Positions 48,454-59,448 of a stretch of 64,000 nucleotides of DNA are shown here, in pieces; positions within the stretch are counted from its first letter, which is position 1; each line of letters begins with the position of its first letter. Origin of the DNA: Burkholderiales bacterium. Lineage in GTDB: Bacteria > Pseudomonadota > Gammaproteobacteria > Burkholderiales > Burkholderiaceae_C. The stretch covers positions 1 to 64,000 of the forward strand of contig JAEKLF010000038.1 in NCBI GenBank assembly GCA_019509985.1, given 5' to 3'. The notes beneath the pieces are model-generated. The model did not search any database. It was not told the DNA's origin and saw nothing but the letters and a program-made list of their open reading frames with translations. A program made the position numbers and the translations under genes.

Positions 48454-48620
48454 GAGCGAGGAAAGCTGCACGCATCCGTTTTCCAAAGGCAATGACAGCC
48501 GTGCGCGTTGGCATGGGCCGCCATAGACTTGGCCAGCGAAGCTGCCCACGGCATCGAGGGCACGCATTCGTCGGGGCTATGGCGCAAAGAAATATTCGAA
48601 CGGACCGGTCTCGCATCGGC

Positions 48621-50720
48621 ATGACAGCGATGCGATCCGCTGCACGGCTGGTGGCCGTCCTGTTGGCCGGATGCGCCGCCTTCGGCATGCCGGTCATCGG
48701 CCGGGCTCAGGCGGCGGCCGCGAGCGCGGCCTCCATTGCCGGTGCCCAGGCGCCCGTCCTGGACATCGCCGAGCTGAAGGCCAGGATCGCTTCGGACGAC
48801 CGCCGACGGCCTGTCGCTTCGATCGCACTGGCCCAGCAGGCGCTCGCGGCGGCCGGGCTGGCGCCCGAGGATCGTCGCTGGCTGCGTACACGCCTGGTGC
48901 GCGACCTGAACCGCCTGGACCGGACCGACGAGGCCGTCGCCCAGGCGGCAATCGGCCGGCGGGAAGCCCGTGATGAGCTGGAGCGGCTGCAGTTCGACCG
49001 GCTGGAAATGGCAGCGCTGGCTGACGCGCGCCGCCATGACGACCTGCTCAAGCGCTACCAGGGCATCGCCCCCCGACTGCCAGCGCTGGCGAGGGACCCG
49101 GCGGATGCCGAGGCGCGCCTGATCGCCGCGGACATCTGGCGGCTTGCCGGCATGGCGACGTTAGGCGTCGGCCGGCTGCCCGAGGCCACGGAACTGTTGA
49201 CGCAGGCCTTGCGCATCCTCGATGAGCGCCCGGACGCCGTCTTCGAGTTCGCGCAGGCGCTGACCTCCATGGCCCTCGTGCATTCCCGGTCCGGTCGCGC
49301 CGACGAAGCGTTGCGCACGGTGCAACGGGCCATCGAGGTCTCGGAGGCCGCAGGAGACCGCTCCGCCCTGTCCAGCTACTACCTGCGCAAGGGCTATTTC
49401 CTCGGCCTGCTCGGGCGCCCCGACGAACAGCACGAGGCGCTGCTCAAGGCCCGGGCCGCCGCGCAGGACGAGCTGAGGAACTACAACCTCGCCGTGGCGG
49501 CGACCAACCTGGCCGACGTCGCCCTGCAGAAGAAGGACTACCGCGGCGCCCTCAGCTACGCCGAGGAGGCCATGCCTCTCGTGGAACGCACCGGCGACAA
49601 GGAGTCGCTGTGGGTCTGCTGGGTCAACAAGGGCATTGCGCTGAACCGGCTGGGGCGGCCCGGCGGCCTCGATTGGATACGCAAGGCCATCGCCGCCTTC
49701 GCCGCAACACCGGGCATGGCCACCAATGCCGCCGACATCCAGGGCCTGCTGGCCGAGGAGCTGGCCTTCGTCCACGACTACCCTCAGGCCTACGAGGCGG
49801 CAATGCAGTTCAAGCGCCTGAGTGACGAGGTGCGCAAGGCCGCCGACCACAAGCGCATCGCCGAGGCGCAGGCGGCCTATGAGGCCGACAAGCGCCGGCG
49901 CCAGATCGAAGCGCTGGAGCAGGAGCAGCAGCATCAGCAGCGCTTTCGCTGGGTGCTGGCCCTGGCCGCCGTGGCCGGGCTGGCGGCGGCCGTCGTCGCG
50001 GCCGTCAGCCGCCATCACGTCAAGCGGGCCTACCAGGCGATGCGCGACATGGCCTTCTCCGATCCGCTGACCGGCCTGCGCAACCGCCGCCATCTGGTGA
50101 GCACGGTGCAGGAGGACCTGGCGCTGGCGGCGCGCCAGCGCGCCAATGCCAACGCCGGCGCCGCGTCCAGCAATGCCGACATCGTCTTCATGATGATCGA
50201 CGTCGACCACTTCAAAGCCGTCAACGACGTGCACGGCCATGCCGCCGGCGACGCAGTCCTCAGGCAGTGCGCCGCGGTGCTGCAGCGGCAGCTGCGCGAG
50301 TCGGACACCCTCGTGCGCTGGGGCGGCGAGGAATTTCTTGTCTTCGCGCGCCAGGCCAATGCCCAGGAGATCCATGTGCTGGCCGAACGGCTGCGGGCAG
50401 GCATCGCCGCCCACGATTTCCTGCTCGACGATGGCCAGGTGCTGCGCAAGACCTGCTCCATCGGCTACGCCTGCCACCCCTTGCAACAGGACACCAAAGG
50501 CGCAGCGCCGGCGGACTGGAGCGACACCGTGGCGCTGGCCGACCAATGCCTCTACGTCGCCAAGGCCAGCGGCCGCGACGTCTGGGTCGGCGCCACCGCC
50601 CCGGATACCCGGCGAGCCGGCGGGCACCCGGCAATCCGGGAACTGCGGGCCGGTGTCGACGCCGGCCTCTGGACGCTGCGTTGCAGCGGCGGGCGCGAGA
50701 TCGTCTGGCCGGCATCGTGA
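48621..50720 (+). CDS. TPR-containing membrane diguanylate cyclase
   Basis: 699 residues from ATG 48621 (MTAMRSAARLVAVLLAGCA, signal or lipoprotein-like). A long periplasmic region of TPR-like helix pairs (about 60-440, e.g. ALTSMALVHSRSGRADEALR, shown in part), a coiled coil (RRQIEALEQEQQHQQRF), one membrane helix (about 470-490) and a GGDEF domain with DPLTGLRNRR, MIDVDHFKAVND and the intact active site WGGEEFLVF near 567. No inhibitory RxxD five residues before GGEEF (that segment is RESDTLVRW). Expected to make c-di-GMP in response to a periplasmic protein partner. Confidence 0.92.
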   Translation: MTAMRSAARLVAVLLAGCAAFGMPVIGRAQAAAASAASIAGAQAPVLDIAELKARIASDDRRRPVASIALAQQALAAAGLAPEDRRWLRTRLVRDLNRLDRTDEAVAQAAIGRREARDELERLQFDRLEMAALADARRHDDLLKRYQGIAPRLPALARDPADAEARLIAADIWRLAGMATLGVGRLPEATELLTQALRILDERPDAVFEFAQALTSMALVHSRSGRADEALRTVQRAIEVSEAAGDRSALSSYYLRKGYFLGLLGRPDEQHEALLKARAAAQDELRNYNLAVAATNLADVALQKKDYRGALSYAEEAMPLVERTGDKESLWVCWVNKGIALNRLGRPGGLDWIRKAIAAFAATPGMATNAADIQGLLAEELAFVHDYPQAYEAAMQFKRLSDEVRKAADHKRIAEAQAAYEADKRRRQIEALEQEQQHQQRFRWVLALAAVAGLAAAVVAAVSRHHVKRAYQAMRDMAFSDPLTGLRNRRHLVSTVQEDLALAARQRANANAGAASSNADIVFMMIDVDHFKAVNDVHGHAAGDAVLRQCAAVLQRQLRESDTLVRWGGEEFLVFARQANAQEIHVLAERLRAGIAAHDFLLDDGQVLRKTCSIGYACHPLQQDTKGAAPADWSDTVALADQCLYVAKASGRDVWVGATAPDTRRAGGHPAIRELRAGVDAGLWTLRCSGGREIVWPAS

Positions 50721-54600: not shown

Positions 54601-55365
54601 TCAGGCGTTTTTGAACGCGCGCCGGTAGGCCGCCGGCGTGGTGCCGAGCTGGGCCTTGAAGGCGCGCGTCATGTGTGGCTGGTCGCTGAAGCCACACAGC
54701 GCCGCGATGTCGGCCAGCGGTTGCCGCGACTCGGCCAGCAGCGTAGCCGCCCGCTCGACGCGCAGGCGGCGCTGCACCTCGCCCGGCGTGGCACCCAGGT
54801 GAGCGCGGAAGGCCCGCGCCAGCTCGCCGGCGTCGCAACCCACGGCCGCGGCCAGGTCGTCCAGCGCCAGCGCCTGCTGCGGCTGCTCGCGGATGAAGTC
54901 CACGGCCCGCCGCAGCCGGGGCGGCAGCGCGCCGCCGCGGCGGGCCTGCTCGCGCGCGGCCAGGCCGACCAGCTCGTGCGACAGGCCGCTGAGCACCAAC
55001 GGCGAGAAGTCGTCGGCCGTCTGCAGCTCCTGCGCCATGCGTCGCCCCAGCTCGGCCAGCGCCGGCGCGCGCACGGCCGGCGCGTCGGCAAAGCGCACCG
55101 CCTCCTCGAGCCGCGACACGGCCTCGGGCGTCGGCGACAGCACGATCTTGCGCACACCCGCGGCACCGAAGCGCTGGGCATGCGTCTCGTGTGGTGGGTA
55201 GACCAGCAGCGAACCCACCTCGAACTCGCCGGCGCGGCCGCGGATGCGCTCCTCGTAGCGGCCCGACAGCACCAGCGACAGGCTGGCCTCGTCGTGTGCG
55301 TGCGCAGCCATCACCAGGCCGGCGGCGTAGCGTTGCAGGCGGATGTCGGAGAACAGGGCGTTCAT
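54601..55365 (-). CDS. AraC-family transcriptional regulator
   Basis: 254 residues. N-terminal cupin-like sensor (MAAHAHDEASLSLVLSGRYE, LLVYPPHETHAQRF) and C-terminal double helix-turn-helix (about 155-254: LDDLAAAVGCDAGELARAFR, PLADIAALCGFSDQPHMTRA, ending GTTPAAYRRAF). ATG 55365 is chosen; upstream in-frame Mets would add an atypical tail. Divergent from the riboswitch-controlled gene and followed by S41 peptidase, which it may regulate. Confidence 0.93.
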   Translation of the reverse strand: MNALFSDIRLQRYAAGLVMAAHAHDEASLSLVLSGRYEERIRGRAGEFEVGSLLVYPPHETHAQRFGAAGVRKIVLSPTPEAVSRLEEAVRFADAPAVRAPALAELGRRMAQELQTADDFSPLVLSGLSHELVGLAAREQARRGGALPPRLRRAVDFIREQPQQALALDDLAAAVGCDAGELARAFRAHLGATPGEVQRRLRVERAATLLAESRQPLADIAALCGFSDQPHMTRAFKAQLGTTPAAYRRAFKNA

Positions 55366-55513
55366 GGGCCGCGCCAGTCTAGCGAGCAGCGGGCGAGTGG
55401 CCATGAAGCTGCGTAAAGCCACGTGACGGCCGGGGCCGCGCAGGAAGTCACAGCCCTACCGCCGGCCGGCACTGGTGCGCGGGCGGCGCCGTCCCTAGAC
55501 TGCCATCGCTGTA

Positions 55514-55604
55514 TCCACCCTGAGGGCAAACCCGTCGAAAGGCGGGGACGCAAAGCTTCCGGCCTAAGGCACTTCGGTGTCATGGCAGCGGGGCCGCCAA
55601 GCCG
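55514..55604 (+). promoter_or_regulatory. Type I c-di-GMP riboswitch (GEMM-I)
   Basis: Near-textbook aptamer: GGGCAAACC (55524-55532), GNRA loop GAAA (55537-55540) closing the first hairpin, GACGCAAAGC (55547-55556), CCGGCCTAA (55559-55567, tetraloop receptor side) and the second hairpin with GGCAGCGGGGCCGCC (55584-55598). These match the Vibrio cholerae Vc2 RNA block for block. A TAGACT hexamer at 55496-55501 could be the -10. The start codon of the sedolisin gene lies about 50 bases downstream. A hairpin pairing GGCC 55628-55631 with GGCC 55652-55655 abuts that ATG, hinting at translational control. Confidence 0.96.
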
Positions 55605-55655
55605 GAATCTTTCCCGCTTGTCCGCGTGGCCCTCGCCTCTTTTCGAGCCTCGGCC

Positions 55656-57461
55656 ATGCGCAATTCCCGCCTTCTCTGGATTCCCTCCCTGATTACGCTC
55701 GCGGCCCTGGCCGCCTGCGGCGGAGGCAGCGGTGGCGGCAGCGACACGGCCACCATCCAGTCCGGCGACGAGCCGTCGACCGTTTCGTTGAGCGTGCAGC
55801 TCGACAGCATCGACCCGGCCGCCGGCATCGAGGCCCAGCCCAGCTTCCACACCGCCGCCGTCGCGCTCGATGAGCCCGACAACGGCGCCGCGCCGCGCCG
55901 CGCGCTGGCGCTGTCGGGCCTGTCCACCCGGCGCCTGACGCCGGCCGCGCTGGACGATGCGCTGCGCCCCCATGCGCTGGCCGCCAGCACCGGCGAGGCC
56001 GCGCCCATGGCCGCGACGACGACGGTGACGACCTATTCGCCAGCCCAGATCCGCGCCGCCTACGCGCTGCCCACGCTGCCCGCCAGCACGACGGGACTGG
56101 CCGCCGCGCAGGCCGCCCAGCTCGGCGCCGGCCAGACCATCTACCTCGTCAACGCCAAGCACGACCCCAACATCGCCGCCGAGCTGGCTGCCTTCAACGC
56201 CAAGTTCGGCCTGCCGACCTGCACGTCACGCACGCTGACCGCCACGACGACGCTGCCGCTGGCCGCCGCGTCGGGCACGGCCTGCGAGCTGGTCATCGCC
56301 TACAGCGCGGCCGCGAACCTCACGTCCACCACACCGGCCTACGACAGCGGCTGGGCCACCGAGATCGCGCTGGACGTGCAATGGGCCCACGCCACCGCGC
56401 CGCTGGCCCGGCTGGTGCTGATCGAGGCGCCGGACGCCGGCGTGTCCAGCCTGTCCAACGCCGTCGCGCTGGCCAACAGGATGGGCACGGGCGTCGTGTC
56501 CATGAGCTTCGGTGCCAGCGAGGGCAGCTGGACGGCGAGCTACGATGGCGTCTTCGGCGCAACGGGCATGAGCTATGTCGCCGCCACCGGCGACAACGGC
56601 GCGGCCGTGTCCTGGCCCTCGGTGTCGGCCAGGGTGCTGGCCGTGGGTGGCACGACGCTGAGCTACAGCGGCAGCGGCGCCCGCAGCGAGACGACCTGGA
56701 GCGGCACCGGCGGCGGCACCAGCGCCTACACCGCCCTGCCCAGCTATCAGAGCGGCACGATCGGCGGCTACGCGAGGCGCGCCGTCGCCGACGTGGCCTT
56801 CAATGCCGACCCCAACTCCGGCCAGTACGTGGCCCTGCTCGCGCCCGGCACGACCGCGACGCGCTGGGTCAGCGCTGGCGGCACCAGCCTGGCCACGCCG
56901 CAATGGGCCGGCCTCGTCGCCGTGGCCAACGCGATGCGCGCGGCCGGCGGCAAGGCCGCGCTCGGCCAGCCCAACACGGCCGTCTACCAGCAGATCGGTG
57001 CCGTGTCGACGCAGTACTCGGCCGCCTTCAAGGACGTGGCCAGCGGCAGCAACGGCACATGCACGAGCTGCACCGCCAAGGCCGGCTACGACACGCCCAC
57101 CGGCTGGGGCACGCCCAACGTCGGCGCGCTGCTGACGAGTCTCAGCGGCGCCAGCGCGACGGGCGGCACGACCACCACCACTCCCGTGGCGAGCGGCCCG
57201 ACGCTGACGACGACCGCGCTGACCGGCGTCGCCGGCAAGGCCTTCAGCGGCACCATCGGCTACACGGCGCCGGGCGCGACGTCGCTGTCGATCACGATCG
57301 GCGGCGCGCCCAGCGGCATGGGCTTCTCGGCCACCAGCGCGGGCCTGGCCGTCAGCTGGGCCAAGCCGGTGGCCGGCAAGTCCACCCTCGTTATCACCCT
57401 GAAGGACAACCTCGGCAAGACGACGACGGGCAACGTGACCGTGACGATCAGCGCGTCCTGA
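55656..57461 (+). CDS. Sedolisin-family (S53) serine-carboxyl peptidase lipoprotein
   Basis: 601 residues. Signal peptide with lipobox LAAC (MRNSRLLWIPSLITLAALAAC). Catalytic set of S53: Glu236 and Asp240 in TEIALDVQW (correct E-x3-D spacing), oxyanion Asp313 in AATGDNGAAV, Ser411 in GGTSLATPQWAG; the calcium site is AFKDVASGSNG followed by GYDTPTGWGTPN. Residues about 45-170 resemble a shortened pro-region; about 510-601 is a Thr-rich Ig-like domain. An acid peptidase at the cell surface is expected. Expression is under the c-di-GMP riboswitch just upstream. Confidence 0.9.
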   Translation: MRNSRLLWIPSLITLAALAACGGGSGGGSDTATIQSGDEPSTVSLSVQLDSIDPAAGIEAQPSFHTAAVALDEPDNGAAPRRALALSGLSTRRLTPAALDDALRPHALAASTGEAAPMAATTTVTTYSPAQIRAAYALPTLPASTTGLAAAQAAQLGAGQTIYLVNAKHDPNIAAELAAFNAKFGLPTCTSRTLTATTTLPLAAASGTACELVIAYSAAANLTSTTPAYDSGWATEIALDVQWAHATAPLARLVLIEAPDAGVSSLSNAVALANRMGTGVVSMSFGASEGSWTASYDGVFGATGMSYVAATGDNGAAVSWPSVSARVLAVGGTTLSYSGSGARSETTWSGTGGGTSAYTALPSYQSGTIGGYARRAVADVAFNADPNSGQYVALLAPGTTATRWVSAGGTSLATPQWAGLVAVANAMRAAGGKAALGQPNTAVYQQIGAVSTQYSAAFKDVASGSNGTCTSCTAKAGYDTPTGWGTPNVGALLTSLSGASATGGTTTTTPVASGPTLTTTALTGVAGKAFSGTIGYTAPGATSLSITIGGAPSGMGFSATSAGLAVSWAKPVAGKSTLVITLKDNLGKTTTGNVTVTISAS

Positions 57462-57501
57462 AACTCGCCCTAGCATCCCGGCTCCTCATCAAGGAGTCCG
57501 A

Positions 57502-59448
57502 ATGCGTCGCCTGCTGATCGCCACCCTGCTTGCCGCTGCCTTCGCAGCCCACGCCGACACCACCTCCGCCGGCCACAGCTACACCCCGCCGGAGGGCTTC
57601 ACGGCCGCGGCGACGGGCCCGGTCGTGAAGTTCACGGCCCCCGAGGGCGACGCCAGCATCGCCCTCGTCGATCTGGCCTCGGCCACCGATGCCGCCGACG
57701 CCATTGCCCGGGCCTGGAAGCTGGCCCAACCCGATTTCAAGCGCACTCTGCGCCTGGCCACGCCGCGCTCCAGCCGCAATGGCTGGGTCGACCAGCAGGC
57801 TTACGACTACGAGACCTCGCCCAACGAAAAGCTCAGCGTGCAGGCCGTCGCGCGGCGCGCCAGCACGGGCGACGGCAAGGCCTGGATGGTGATCCTGGTG
57901 CAGGCCGCCGACGCCACGCTGGAAAAGCGCGGCGCGCCCATCGGCAAGTTCCTGTCCAGCCTGCGGCCCCAGGGCTATGCGCGCGAAAGCTTTGCCGGCA
58001 AGGCCGCCAAGCCGTTGACGCCGGAGCGCGTCGAGCAGCTCAAGGCCTTCATCGCCGACGGCATGAAGCAGCTCGACGTGCCCGGCGTGGGCCTGAGTTT
58101 CATCAACGCCAACCAGGTCGTCTGGGCCGGGGGCCTGGGCGTGCGCGAGCAGGGCAAACCCGCCAAGGTGGACGGCGACACCCTCTTCATGGCCGCCAGC
58201 AACACCAAGGCGATGACGACGGCGCTGATGGCGCGCGCGGTGGACGCCGGCAAGCTACGCTGGGACGAGCCCGCCACCGAGGCCTACCCGGCCTTCCACC
58301 TGGCCGACCCGGACGTGACCCAGACCGTGCAGATCCGCCACCTCGTCTGCGCCTGCACCGGCATGCCGCGCCAGGACCTGGACTGGCTGTTCGCCAGCGG
58401 CCGCGCGCCGGCCAAGACCACCTTCGACCAACTCGGCACGATGAAGCCGACGAGCAAGTTCGGCGAAGTCTTCCAGTACAGCAACCTGATGGTGGGCGCT
58501 GGCGGCTACATCGCAGCCGCCGCGCTCAAGCCAGGAAAGGAAGTCGGCGCGGCCTACGACGAGGCCATGCAGGAACTGCTGTTCGGGCCGCTGGGCATGA
58601 AGAGCACGACCTTCGACTACGCCAAGGTGCTGCGCGGCAACCACGCCATGCCGCACGGCGATGCCTTCGACGGCAGCACGCGCCGCGCCAGCATGGACCT
58701 GAACTACACCATCATCCCGGCCCGCCCCGCCGGCGCCGTGTGGACGACGCCGAACGACTTCAGCCGCTGGGTGCTGATGGAGCTGAACAAGGGCAAGACG
58801 CCCGAGGGCCAGCCACTGATCGGCGAAGCCAACTGGGCCGAGCGCTACAAGCCGCAGGTGATGGTCAGCGAGGACATCACCTACGGCATGGGCCTGATCG
58901 TCGACAAGCAGTACGGCATCACCGTCGCCTCGCACGGCGGCGACATGCTGGGCTTTCACTCCAACATGATCTGGCTGCCGGAGTACGGCATCGGCGTGAC
59001 CATCCTGACCAACTCCGACGCCGGCGTGCTGCTGCGCGGGCCGCTGCAGCGCAAGCTGCTGGAGGTGCTGTTCGACGGCCGCCCCGAAGCCGACGAGCGG
59101 ATCAAGGTGGCCGTGGCCAACCGCAAGGCCGAGTCGGCCAAGTTCCGCGAGCTGATGACGCTGCCCGTGCCGGCCGACGCGATCAAGCCCTTGGCCGCCA
59201 GCTACGCCAGCCCCGAGCTCGGCCATGTCAAGGTCAGCAAGCAGGCGGGCAAGCTGCGCTTCCAGTTCGACCACTGGAACAGCGAGGTCGCGCTGCGCAA
59301 GAACGAGGACGGCACGCAGAGCTACATCACCATCGACCCGGGCATTGCCGGCATCGAGTTCGTGCGCGACGACAAGGCCACGCAGCCCACGCTTGTGCTG
59401 CGCGATGCGCAGCACGAGTACCGCTTCGTGGCGGCTAAGCCCAGCTGA
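57502..59448 (+). CDS. Exported class C beta-lactamase-like serine hydrolase
   Basis: 648 residues; AAGGAG five bases before the ATG; signal MRRLLIATLLAAAFAAHA. An N-terminal domain (about 25-165) of unknown role precedes the catalytic domain with S233-N-T-K236 (AASNTKAM), Y-S-N in VFQYSNLMVG and the HGG motif in SHGGDMLGF. The last about 110 residues form a lipocalin-like DUF3471-type domain (FQFDHWNSEV). Family members are esterases, D-aminopeptidases or DD-peptidases, rarely true beta-lactamases. Its 3' end overlaps the convergent kinase gene by 14 bp. Confidence 0.9.
   Translation: MRRLLIATLLAAAFAAHADTTSAGHSYTPPEGFTAAATGPVVKFTAPEGDASIALVDLASATDAADAIARAWKLAQPDFKRTLRLATPRSSRNGWVDQQAYDYETSPNEKLSVQAVARRASTGDGKAWMVILVQAADATLEKRGAPIGKFLSSLRPQGYARESFAGKAAKPLTPERVEQLKAFIADGMKQLDVPGVGLSFINANQVVWAGGLGVREQGKPAKVDGDTLFMAASNTKAMTTALMARAVDAGKLRWDEPATEAYPAFHLADPDVTQTVQIRHLVCACTGMPRQDLDWLFASGRAPAKTTFDQLGTMKPTSKFGEVFQYSNLMVGAGGYIAAAALKPGKEVGAAYDEAMQELLFGPLGMKSTTFDYAKVLRGNHAMPHGDAFDGSTRRASMDLNYTIIPARPAGAVWTTPNDFSRWVLMELNKGKTPEGQPLIGEANWAERYKPQVMVSEDITYGMGLIVDKQYGITVASHGGDMLGFHSNMIWLPEYGIGVTILTNSDAGVLLRGPLQRKLLEVLFDGRPEADERIKVAVANRKAESAKFRELMTLPVPADAIKPLAASYASPELGHVKVSKQAGKLRFQFDHWNSEVALRKNEDGTQSYITIDPGIAGIEFVRDDKATQPTLVLRDAQHEYRFVAAKPS

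Follow-up and report, generated by a model that had tools for sequence, protein, structure and literature searches.

A c-di-GMP-I riboswitch precedes a predicted S53 peptidase gene

The stretch of DNA analysed here, 64,000 nt in length and referred to as the window, comes from a Roseateles-like bacterium. A cmscan of the whole window returned a single RNA family over its cut-off, the c-di-GMP-I (GEMM-I) aptamer RF01051, and the features around it, all on the forward strand, are as follows.

55515..55601, +, c-di-GMP-I (GEMM-I) aptamer, RF01051
55522..55527, +, aptamer 5' strand GAGGGC, able to pair with the downstream box
55623..55660, +, start-codon hairpin of 9 + 4 pairs (CGCGUGGCC / GGCCAUGCG plus CUCG / CGAG), part of the minimum-energy fold
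55624..55637, +, conserved expression-platform box GCGTGGCCCTCGCC
55656..57461, +, gene for a predicted S53 (sedolisin/kumamolisin) lipoprotein peptidase with a C-terminal Ig-like stretch
57502..59448, +, gene for a predicted serine hydrolase of the beta-lactamase fold (PF00144, 5.9e-50), 40 bases past the S53 stop

The aptamer matches its model over the full length (model positions 1-87) with 78.1 bits against a gathering score of 35 (E 1.2e-13), and 54 bases separate it from the start codon at 55656. The original prediction had placed a GEMM-I aptamer about 50 bases 5' of an S53 lipoprotein gene and had proposed an Infernal search with RF01051 as a check; that search, now run, bears out the locus and moves the first base of the aptamer to 55515, the earlier 55514 being one base early. 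In the window, as invariably across 28 aptamers, position 12 is G, positions 38-40 are AAA and position 83 is C, columns that we equate with G20, A47 and C92 of Vc2; the ligand-contact G inside 55522-55527 is presumably the equivalent of Vc2 G20. These three Vc2 nucleotides are named as ligand contacts in PMC11218506. Every feature tested agrees with the c-di-GMP-I class; the identity of the aptamer is nearly certain, and ligand binding is predicted.

We set the start of the peptidase gene by choice at ATG 55656, the longest listed ORF opening at GTG 55626, and the resulting protein of 601 residues carries a lipobox-like LAAC close to its N-terminus. No Pfam or NCBIfam family matched it at thresholds of 0.001 and 0.1. 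Searches against solved structures by hmmsearch with a profile of 13 S53 homologues recovered kumamolisin-As (3.3e-29) and sedolisin (1e-19), and the protein as a single query recovered sedolisin (1.1e-13). In the alignment, D313 and S411 are invariant and E236 and D240 are at least 90% conserved, and all four align to kumamolisin-As; we take E236, D240, D313 and S411 to be the catalytic Glu and Asp, the oxyanion Asp and the catalytic Ser, respectively. The number of Ig-like C-terminal repeats varies among the homologues, and an AlphaFold model built on the 13-row alignment is of low confidence (mean pLDDT 46.7). Judged from sequence, the prediction of an S53 peptidase at 55656-57461 is close to certain.

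The serine hydrolase gene may possibly lie on the S53 transcript, and a homologue directly follows the S53 gene in 6 of 80 named loci (the best 80 of the 187 described below). An AraC-type regulator gene lies 5' of the locus on the opposite strand, and a search for a promoter at the locus found none. A TPR-GGDEF protein, likely a diguanylate cyclase, is encoded at 48492-50720, about 5 kb from the riboswitch. S53 genes of this kind number one in the host genome, which also encodes a single distant relative (E 1.8e-4).

Phyletic conservation of the riboswitch–peptidase association

Searching named genomes with the S53 profile yielded 187 relatives; we kept the best 80, leaving more distant loci outside the sample, and looked for riboswitches upstream of them with a model built from the 28 aptamers. 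An aptamer lies upstream of the S53 gene in 65 of these best 80 loci, distributed across the Sphaerotilaceae, Comamonadaceae, Oxalobacteraceae and Zoogloeaceae, among others. When 12 of the 65 were re-checked with Rfam, 11 passed the cut-off and one (L189) failed. Among the 15 loci lacking an aptamer, the available sequence ends there in two (L171 and L195), and the other 13 form one clade of Duganella, one Rugamonas and one Oxalobacteraceae MAG, nested among riboswitch bearers (SH-aLRT 99 in a quick tree). This pattern reads as a single loss of the riboswitch in the Duganella/Rugamonas clade.

In a second sample, 200 genomes of the family searched with stricter Infernal filters, we recovered 96 c-di-GMP-I matches in 58 genomes; 13 of the 96 directly precede an S53 homologue, each in a different genome. 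Viewed from the gene, close S53 homologues (E <1e-100) occur in 18 of the 200 genomes and have the riboswitch directly before them in 13, while none was detected in that position in the other five (G011, G067, G138, G139 and G170). The two samples together uphold the association of a c-di-GMP-I riboswitch with an exported-type S53 lipoprotein as a conserved one.

Two side observations arose from this survey. By eye, several riboswitch-less Duganella leaders (for example L175, L186, L222, L229 and L231) contain an inverted repeat of the type ATTTCC...GGAA(A/T)TT with a TAGTAT-like hexamer after it; the two may be an operator and a promoter that took the place of RNA control. Separately, a MAG contig titled Bordetella parapertussis (L234) carries both the S53 gene and the riboswitch and groups with environmental Burkholderiales in the tree; its label seems doubtful.

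A conserved leader box with two overlapping complements

Between the aptamer and the start codon lies the box GCGTGGCCCTCGCC, which has two complements within the same leader. In helix 1, box positions 55629-55634 (GCCCUC) complement the aptamer strand 55522-55527 (GAGGGC); in helix 2, box positions 55625-55631 (CGUGGCC) complement the start region 55652-55658 (GGCCAUG). The two helices share three box bases, and full pairing with both is impossible. The hairpin at 55623-55660 would mask the AUG together with a weak GAG ribosome site. The original prediction had read a hairpin next to the ATG as a sign of translational switching; that reading gains support here and becomes more specific, in that the 5' arm of the hairpin is the conserved box, itself also able to pair with the aptamer 5' strand. 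A search for a transcription terminator 3' of the aptamer found no terminator-like site at 55300-57600.

Both helices were assessed across S53 leaders. The 13 family and 65 named leaders (78 in total) gave 71 unique sequences, of which 61 were used, corresponding to 52 unique triples; a leader was kept if it matched the box well and had 14-31 bases between box and start, and 10 of the 71 were dropped for a poor box or odd spacing. One leader still counted among the 61 (G075) has its box and start misplaced inside the gene by the script. In permutations, whose statistics ignore relatedness among leaders, the observed pairing of helix 1 was reached in 0 of 2000 trials, both with the 61 rows and with the 52 unique triples; for helix 2 the 2000 trials reached it once with the 61 rows and never with the 52 triples. 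Sliding the register lowered the fraction of paired cells from 0.96 to at most 0.65 for helix 1 and from 0.84 to at most 0.48 for helix 2. The first 13 leaders by themselves gave a weak permutation result (38 of 2000), although 0 of 500 mononucleotide shuffles reached the observed pairing; the permutation signal became clear once 61 leaders were used. In none of the 13 family S53 leaders did helix 1 go beyond dinucleotide shuffles of the single leader (6-83 of 100 shuffles reached it), so the support for helix 1 is comparative.

Compensatory changes accompany both helices. For helix 1, CAGGGC is matched by GCCCTG and GAAGGC by GCCTTC, and compensatory changes occur in G183 (a C-G pair), L217 (an A-U pair) and L213; in Curvibacter leaders, which lie outside the 61, the strand AGGCACA is matched by a downstream TGTGCCT. 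For helix 2, GTGACC occurs with TCATG in a clade of three (L198, L203 and L235; A-U), and a GGT/ACC change gives a U-A pair in L224.

The box apparently is more conserved than the surrounding spacer. With a score table built from S53 leaders, most of the 65 scored being among them, box scores above 9 were obtained in 54 of the 65 aptamer-bearing named loci, in none of the 13 aptamer-less S53 loci and in 52 of 710 random 150-nt stretches. Elsewhere, 11 of 83 non-S53 riboswitch leaders score above 9, eight of them inside a predicted gene, and among these non-S53 leaders only that of G195, before an S8 lipoprotein gene, is clearly arranged as at S53 loci, with the aptamer strand first, then the box, then the ATG. 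The start codon is preceded by GCC in 34 of 52 S53 leaders versus 24 of 172 other genes near family-sample riboswitches. By eye, Duganella leaders that have neither box nor aptamer also retain GCCATG, in at least 6 cases out of 11. Because these box-less leaders keep GCCATG, the GCC before ATG must have another cause, at least in part, and helix 2 as its sole reason is ruled out.

Folding energies

The stability of the leader as a whole is unremarkable (z -1.8; 11 of 200 shuffles were equally stable). In the window, the model places the state containing helix 1 at 2.6 kcal/mol above the bound-like one; across the 61 leaders, helix 1 represents the lower-energy state in 27. Since the helix-1 state is often the less stable one, opening in the absence of ligand would need kinetic control or help. 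Modelled openness of the start region is 0.63 with helix 1 forced versus 0.38 in the bound-like state and is higher in 56 of 61 leaders, a difference that arises partly by construction. When the box or any other position was blocked in the model as a control, the box ranked in the top quartile for opening the start in 34 of 61 leaders (mean percentile rank 0.37), only moderately better than other positions. Taken together, the modelled energies are equivocal and do not decide the direction of control.

Proposed mechanism and alternative explanations

What the sequence contains is an aptamer, a peptidase gene, a conserved box between them and the two overlapping complements of that box: a pair of helices that exclude each other, the first using the aptamer strand and the second covering the start codon. 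Both stand out in the permutation and slide controls; their energies are equivocal. On this basis we favour, with somewhat better than even confidence, a translational OFF switch for the exported S53 lipoprotein peptidase, the direction being our reading of the arrangement. In the absence of c-di-GMP, the box segment GCCCUC would pair with the aptamer 5' strand GAGGGC, undoing the binding site and leaving the AUG open. With c-di-GMP bound, the aptamer would retain its 5' strand, and the freed CGUGGCC would pair with GGCCAUG and block initiation. Because the aptamer requires its 5' strand for binding, the ligand must release the box, which is then able to cover the AUG; translational repression by c-di-GMP is therefore the best reading. 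The S53 peptidase, and possibly the serine hydrolase, would then be made when c-di-GMP falls and cells leave the sessile state.

The same parts could also work in the opposite sense, with helix 1, about 20 bases before the AUG, hindering the ribosome until c-di-GMP relieves it; protease production would then go with high c-di-GMP. Helix 1 does have the stronger comparative support of the two helices, the persistence of GCCATG in box-less relatives weakens the AUG-masking helix, and the c-di-GMP-I element Vc1 shows that this class can act as an ON switch (PMC4744006). Helix 2, however, has compensatory changes and a register specificity of its own, and the AUG hairpin belongs to the minimum-energy fold; we regard an ON switch as unlikely. 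Somewhat lower still do we place control of transcription or RNA stability (through Rho, a distant terminator or an RNase) with the AUG hairpin incidental, a reading for which T runs before the ribosome site in some relatives speak, as does the C. difficile riboswitch Cd1, a transcriptional OFF switch (PMC9262584). The lack of a terminator-like site in the interval searched argues against it, the box is kept without a T run in Janthinobacterium leaders and others, and its distance to the start is 14-31 bases in the 61 leaders used, though this range is itself the selection rule.

A further reading accepts the aptamer and assigns the box to another role, such as a site for a protein or small RNA, with no switching between two helices. 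It would account for a box more conserved than its spacer, for energies that do not demand a switch and for a GCCATG that outlasts the box in Duganella, but it sits poorly with compensatory changes against the aptamer strand in several lineages and with the joint loss of box and aptamer, which leave it, in our estimate, distinctly improbable. As to the ligand, the G20-equivalent position, which we take to be correctly mapped by Rfam column in the named aptamers, is G in 65 of 65 of them and in the window. This bears on 3',3'-cGAMP as the ligand in place of c-di-GMP: variants of the c-di-GMP-I class have changed ligand (PMC7266159), and a G20A change lets the class bind cGAMP (PMC6274999). With G retained throughout, we consider cGAMP a very remote candidate.

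Exported-type peptidase genes behind c-di-GMP-I riboswitches in the family

Surveying the first genes behind the 96 family riboswitches, which were chosen by a codon-usage script (three of the 96 had no forward-strand gene first), we found that 40 precede exported-type peptidase genes, spread over 35 of the 58 genomes: 13 S53, 22 S8 and five metallopeptidase-like. Of the 80 non-S53 first genes, 40 were scanned with Pfam and the rest grouped by phmmer only. All 22 S8 genes have a Pfam S8 domain over the cut-off; the metallopeptidase-like set comprises one strong case (L097) and a four-member cluster represented in the scan by a single protein, whose scores were weak. As a control, one of 233 neighbouring genes in the same stretches matched, and it is one of the 40 counted again. 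Beyond the family, we examined 29 loci out of 85 class-sample matches lying outside the host genome, and none precedes such a peptidase gene within the 1.5 kb or less of downstream sequence covered, several of these stretches being shorter.

The host genome itself has three c-di-GMP-I riboswitches, whose targets are the S53 gene, an S8 subtilase of 719 aa (L033, contig C58) and a secreted-looking protein of 336 aa without a Pfam family (L034, contig C42), a similar protein lying behind a riboswitch of G030 (L037). Because the genome has nine S8 matches (eight genes by position), chance is an unlikely explanation for two of its three riboswitches standing before an S8 or S53 gene.

Other contexts were also recovered. 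In 13 family genomes (L107, L079, L095 and ten more; one protein Pfam-checked), aptamers lie 350-670 bases before FliE-like genes, long leaders that probably reflect flagellar control, and one family riboswitch precedes a type VI secretion gene. In the class-level sample, two tandem c-di-GMP-I aptamers lie 139 bases apart in one genome (L262; G253 contig C36, 975-1279), and another genome (G365) has 15 c-di-GMP-I matches.

The occurrence of one riboswitch class before several unrelated exported-type peptidases, with 40 of the 96 family riboswitches preceding peptidase genes, looks like a c-di-GMP–exoprotease regulon in this lineage. We tentatively extend this, at slightly less than an even chance, to a Burkholderiales regulon in which separate switches would repress S53, S8 and metallopeptidase-like peptidases at high c-di-GMP and jointly release them at low c-di-GMP, convergent with C. 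difficile, and in whose S53 branch the aptamer 5' strand would act as the antidote to an AUG-masking box. To our knowledge, how dispersing biofilm cells switch on matrix or surface proteases is poorly known beyond a few models. If true, the regulon would connect a biofilm signal with proteolysis at the cell surface through RNA alone, in environmental bacteria such as Roseateles, Janthinobacterium, Undibacterium, Rhodoferax and Paucibacter.

Comparison with known systems

In searches of the open-licence PMC literature, a body with most subscription journals outside its scope, we found no report that combines an S53 lipoprotein, the GCGTGGCCCTCGCC box and a lineage-wide peptidase regulon. At the protein level, the predicted peptidase resembles sedolisin and kumamolisin in its catalytic E, D, D and S, which align or are conserved, but unlike the known members it is a lipoprotein with a varying number of Ig-like C-terminal repeats and is missed by Pfam and NCBIfam models.

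Among riboswitches, Vc2 reportedly represses translation by masking the ribosome site. In Bc1, c-di-GMP binding locks the ribosome site, together with the AUG, into a stem-loop (PMC11218506). The S53 leader would likewise trap its AUG on ligand binding; the Bc1 platform, however, spans about 220 bases with two terminators, whereas here a short box would compete for the aptamer's own 5' strand.

The original prediction had named the c-di-GMP-controlled secreted protease of Clostridioides difficile as the closest analogy, and the comparison is a fair one. PPEP-1/Zmp1 (CD2830) is preceded by a class I c-di-GMP riboswitch; the enzyme is produced when c-di-GMP is low and releases adhesins (PMC11477304). 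Both systems place a class I c-di-GMP riboswitch before an exported-type protease, and the outcome that we infer here, protease at low c-di-GMP, is alike. PPEP-1, by contrast, is a metalloprotease that cuts Pro-Pro bonds, whereas the Burkholderiales locus has a predicted S53 serine peptidase lipoprotein behind a platform of translational type.
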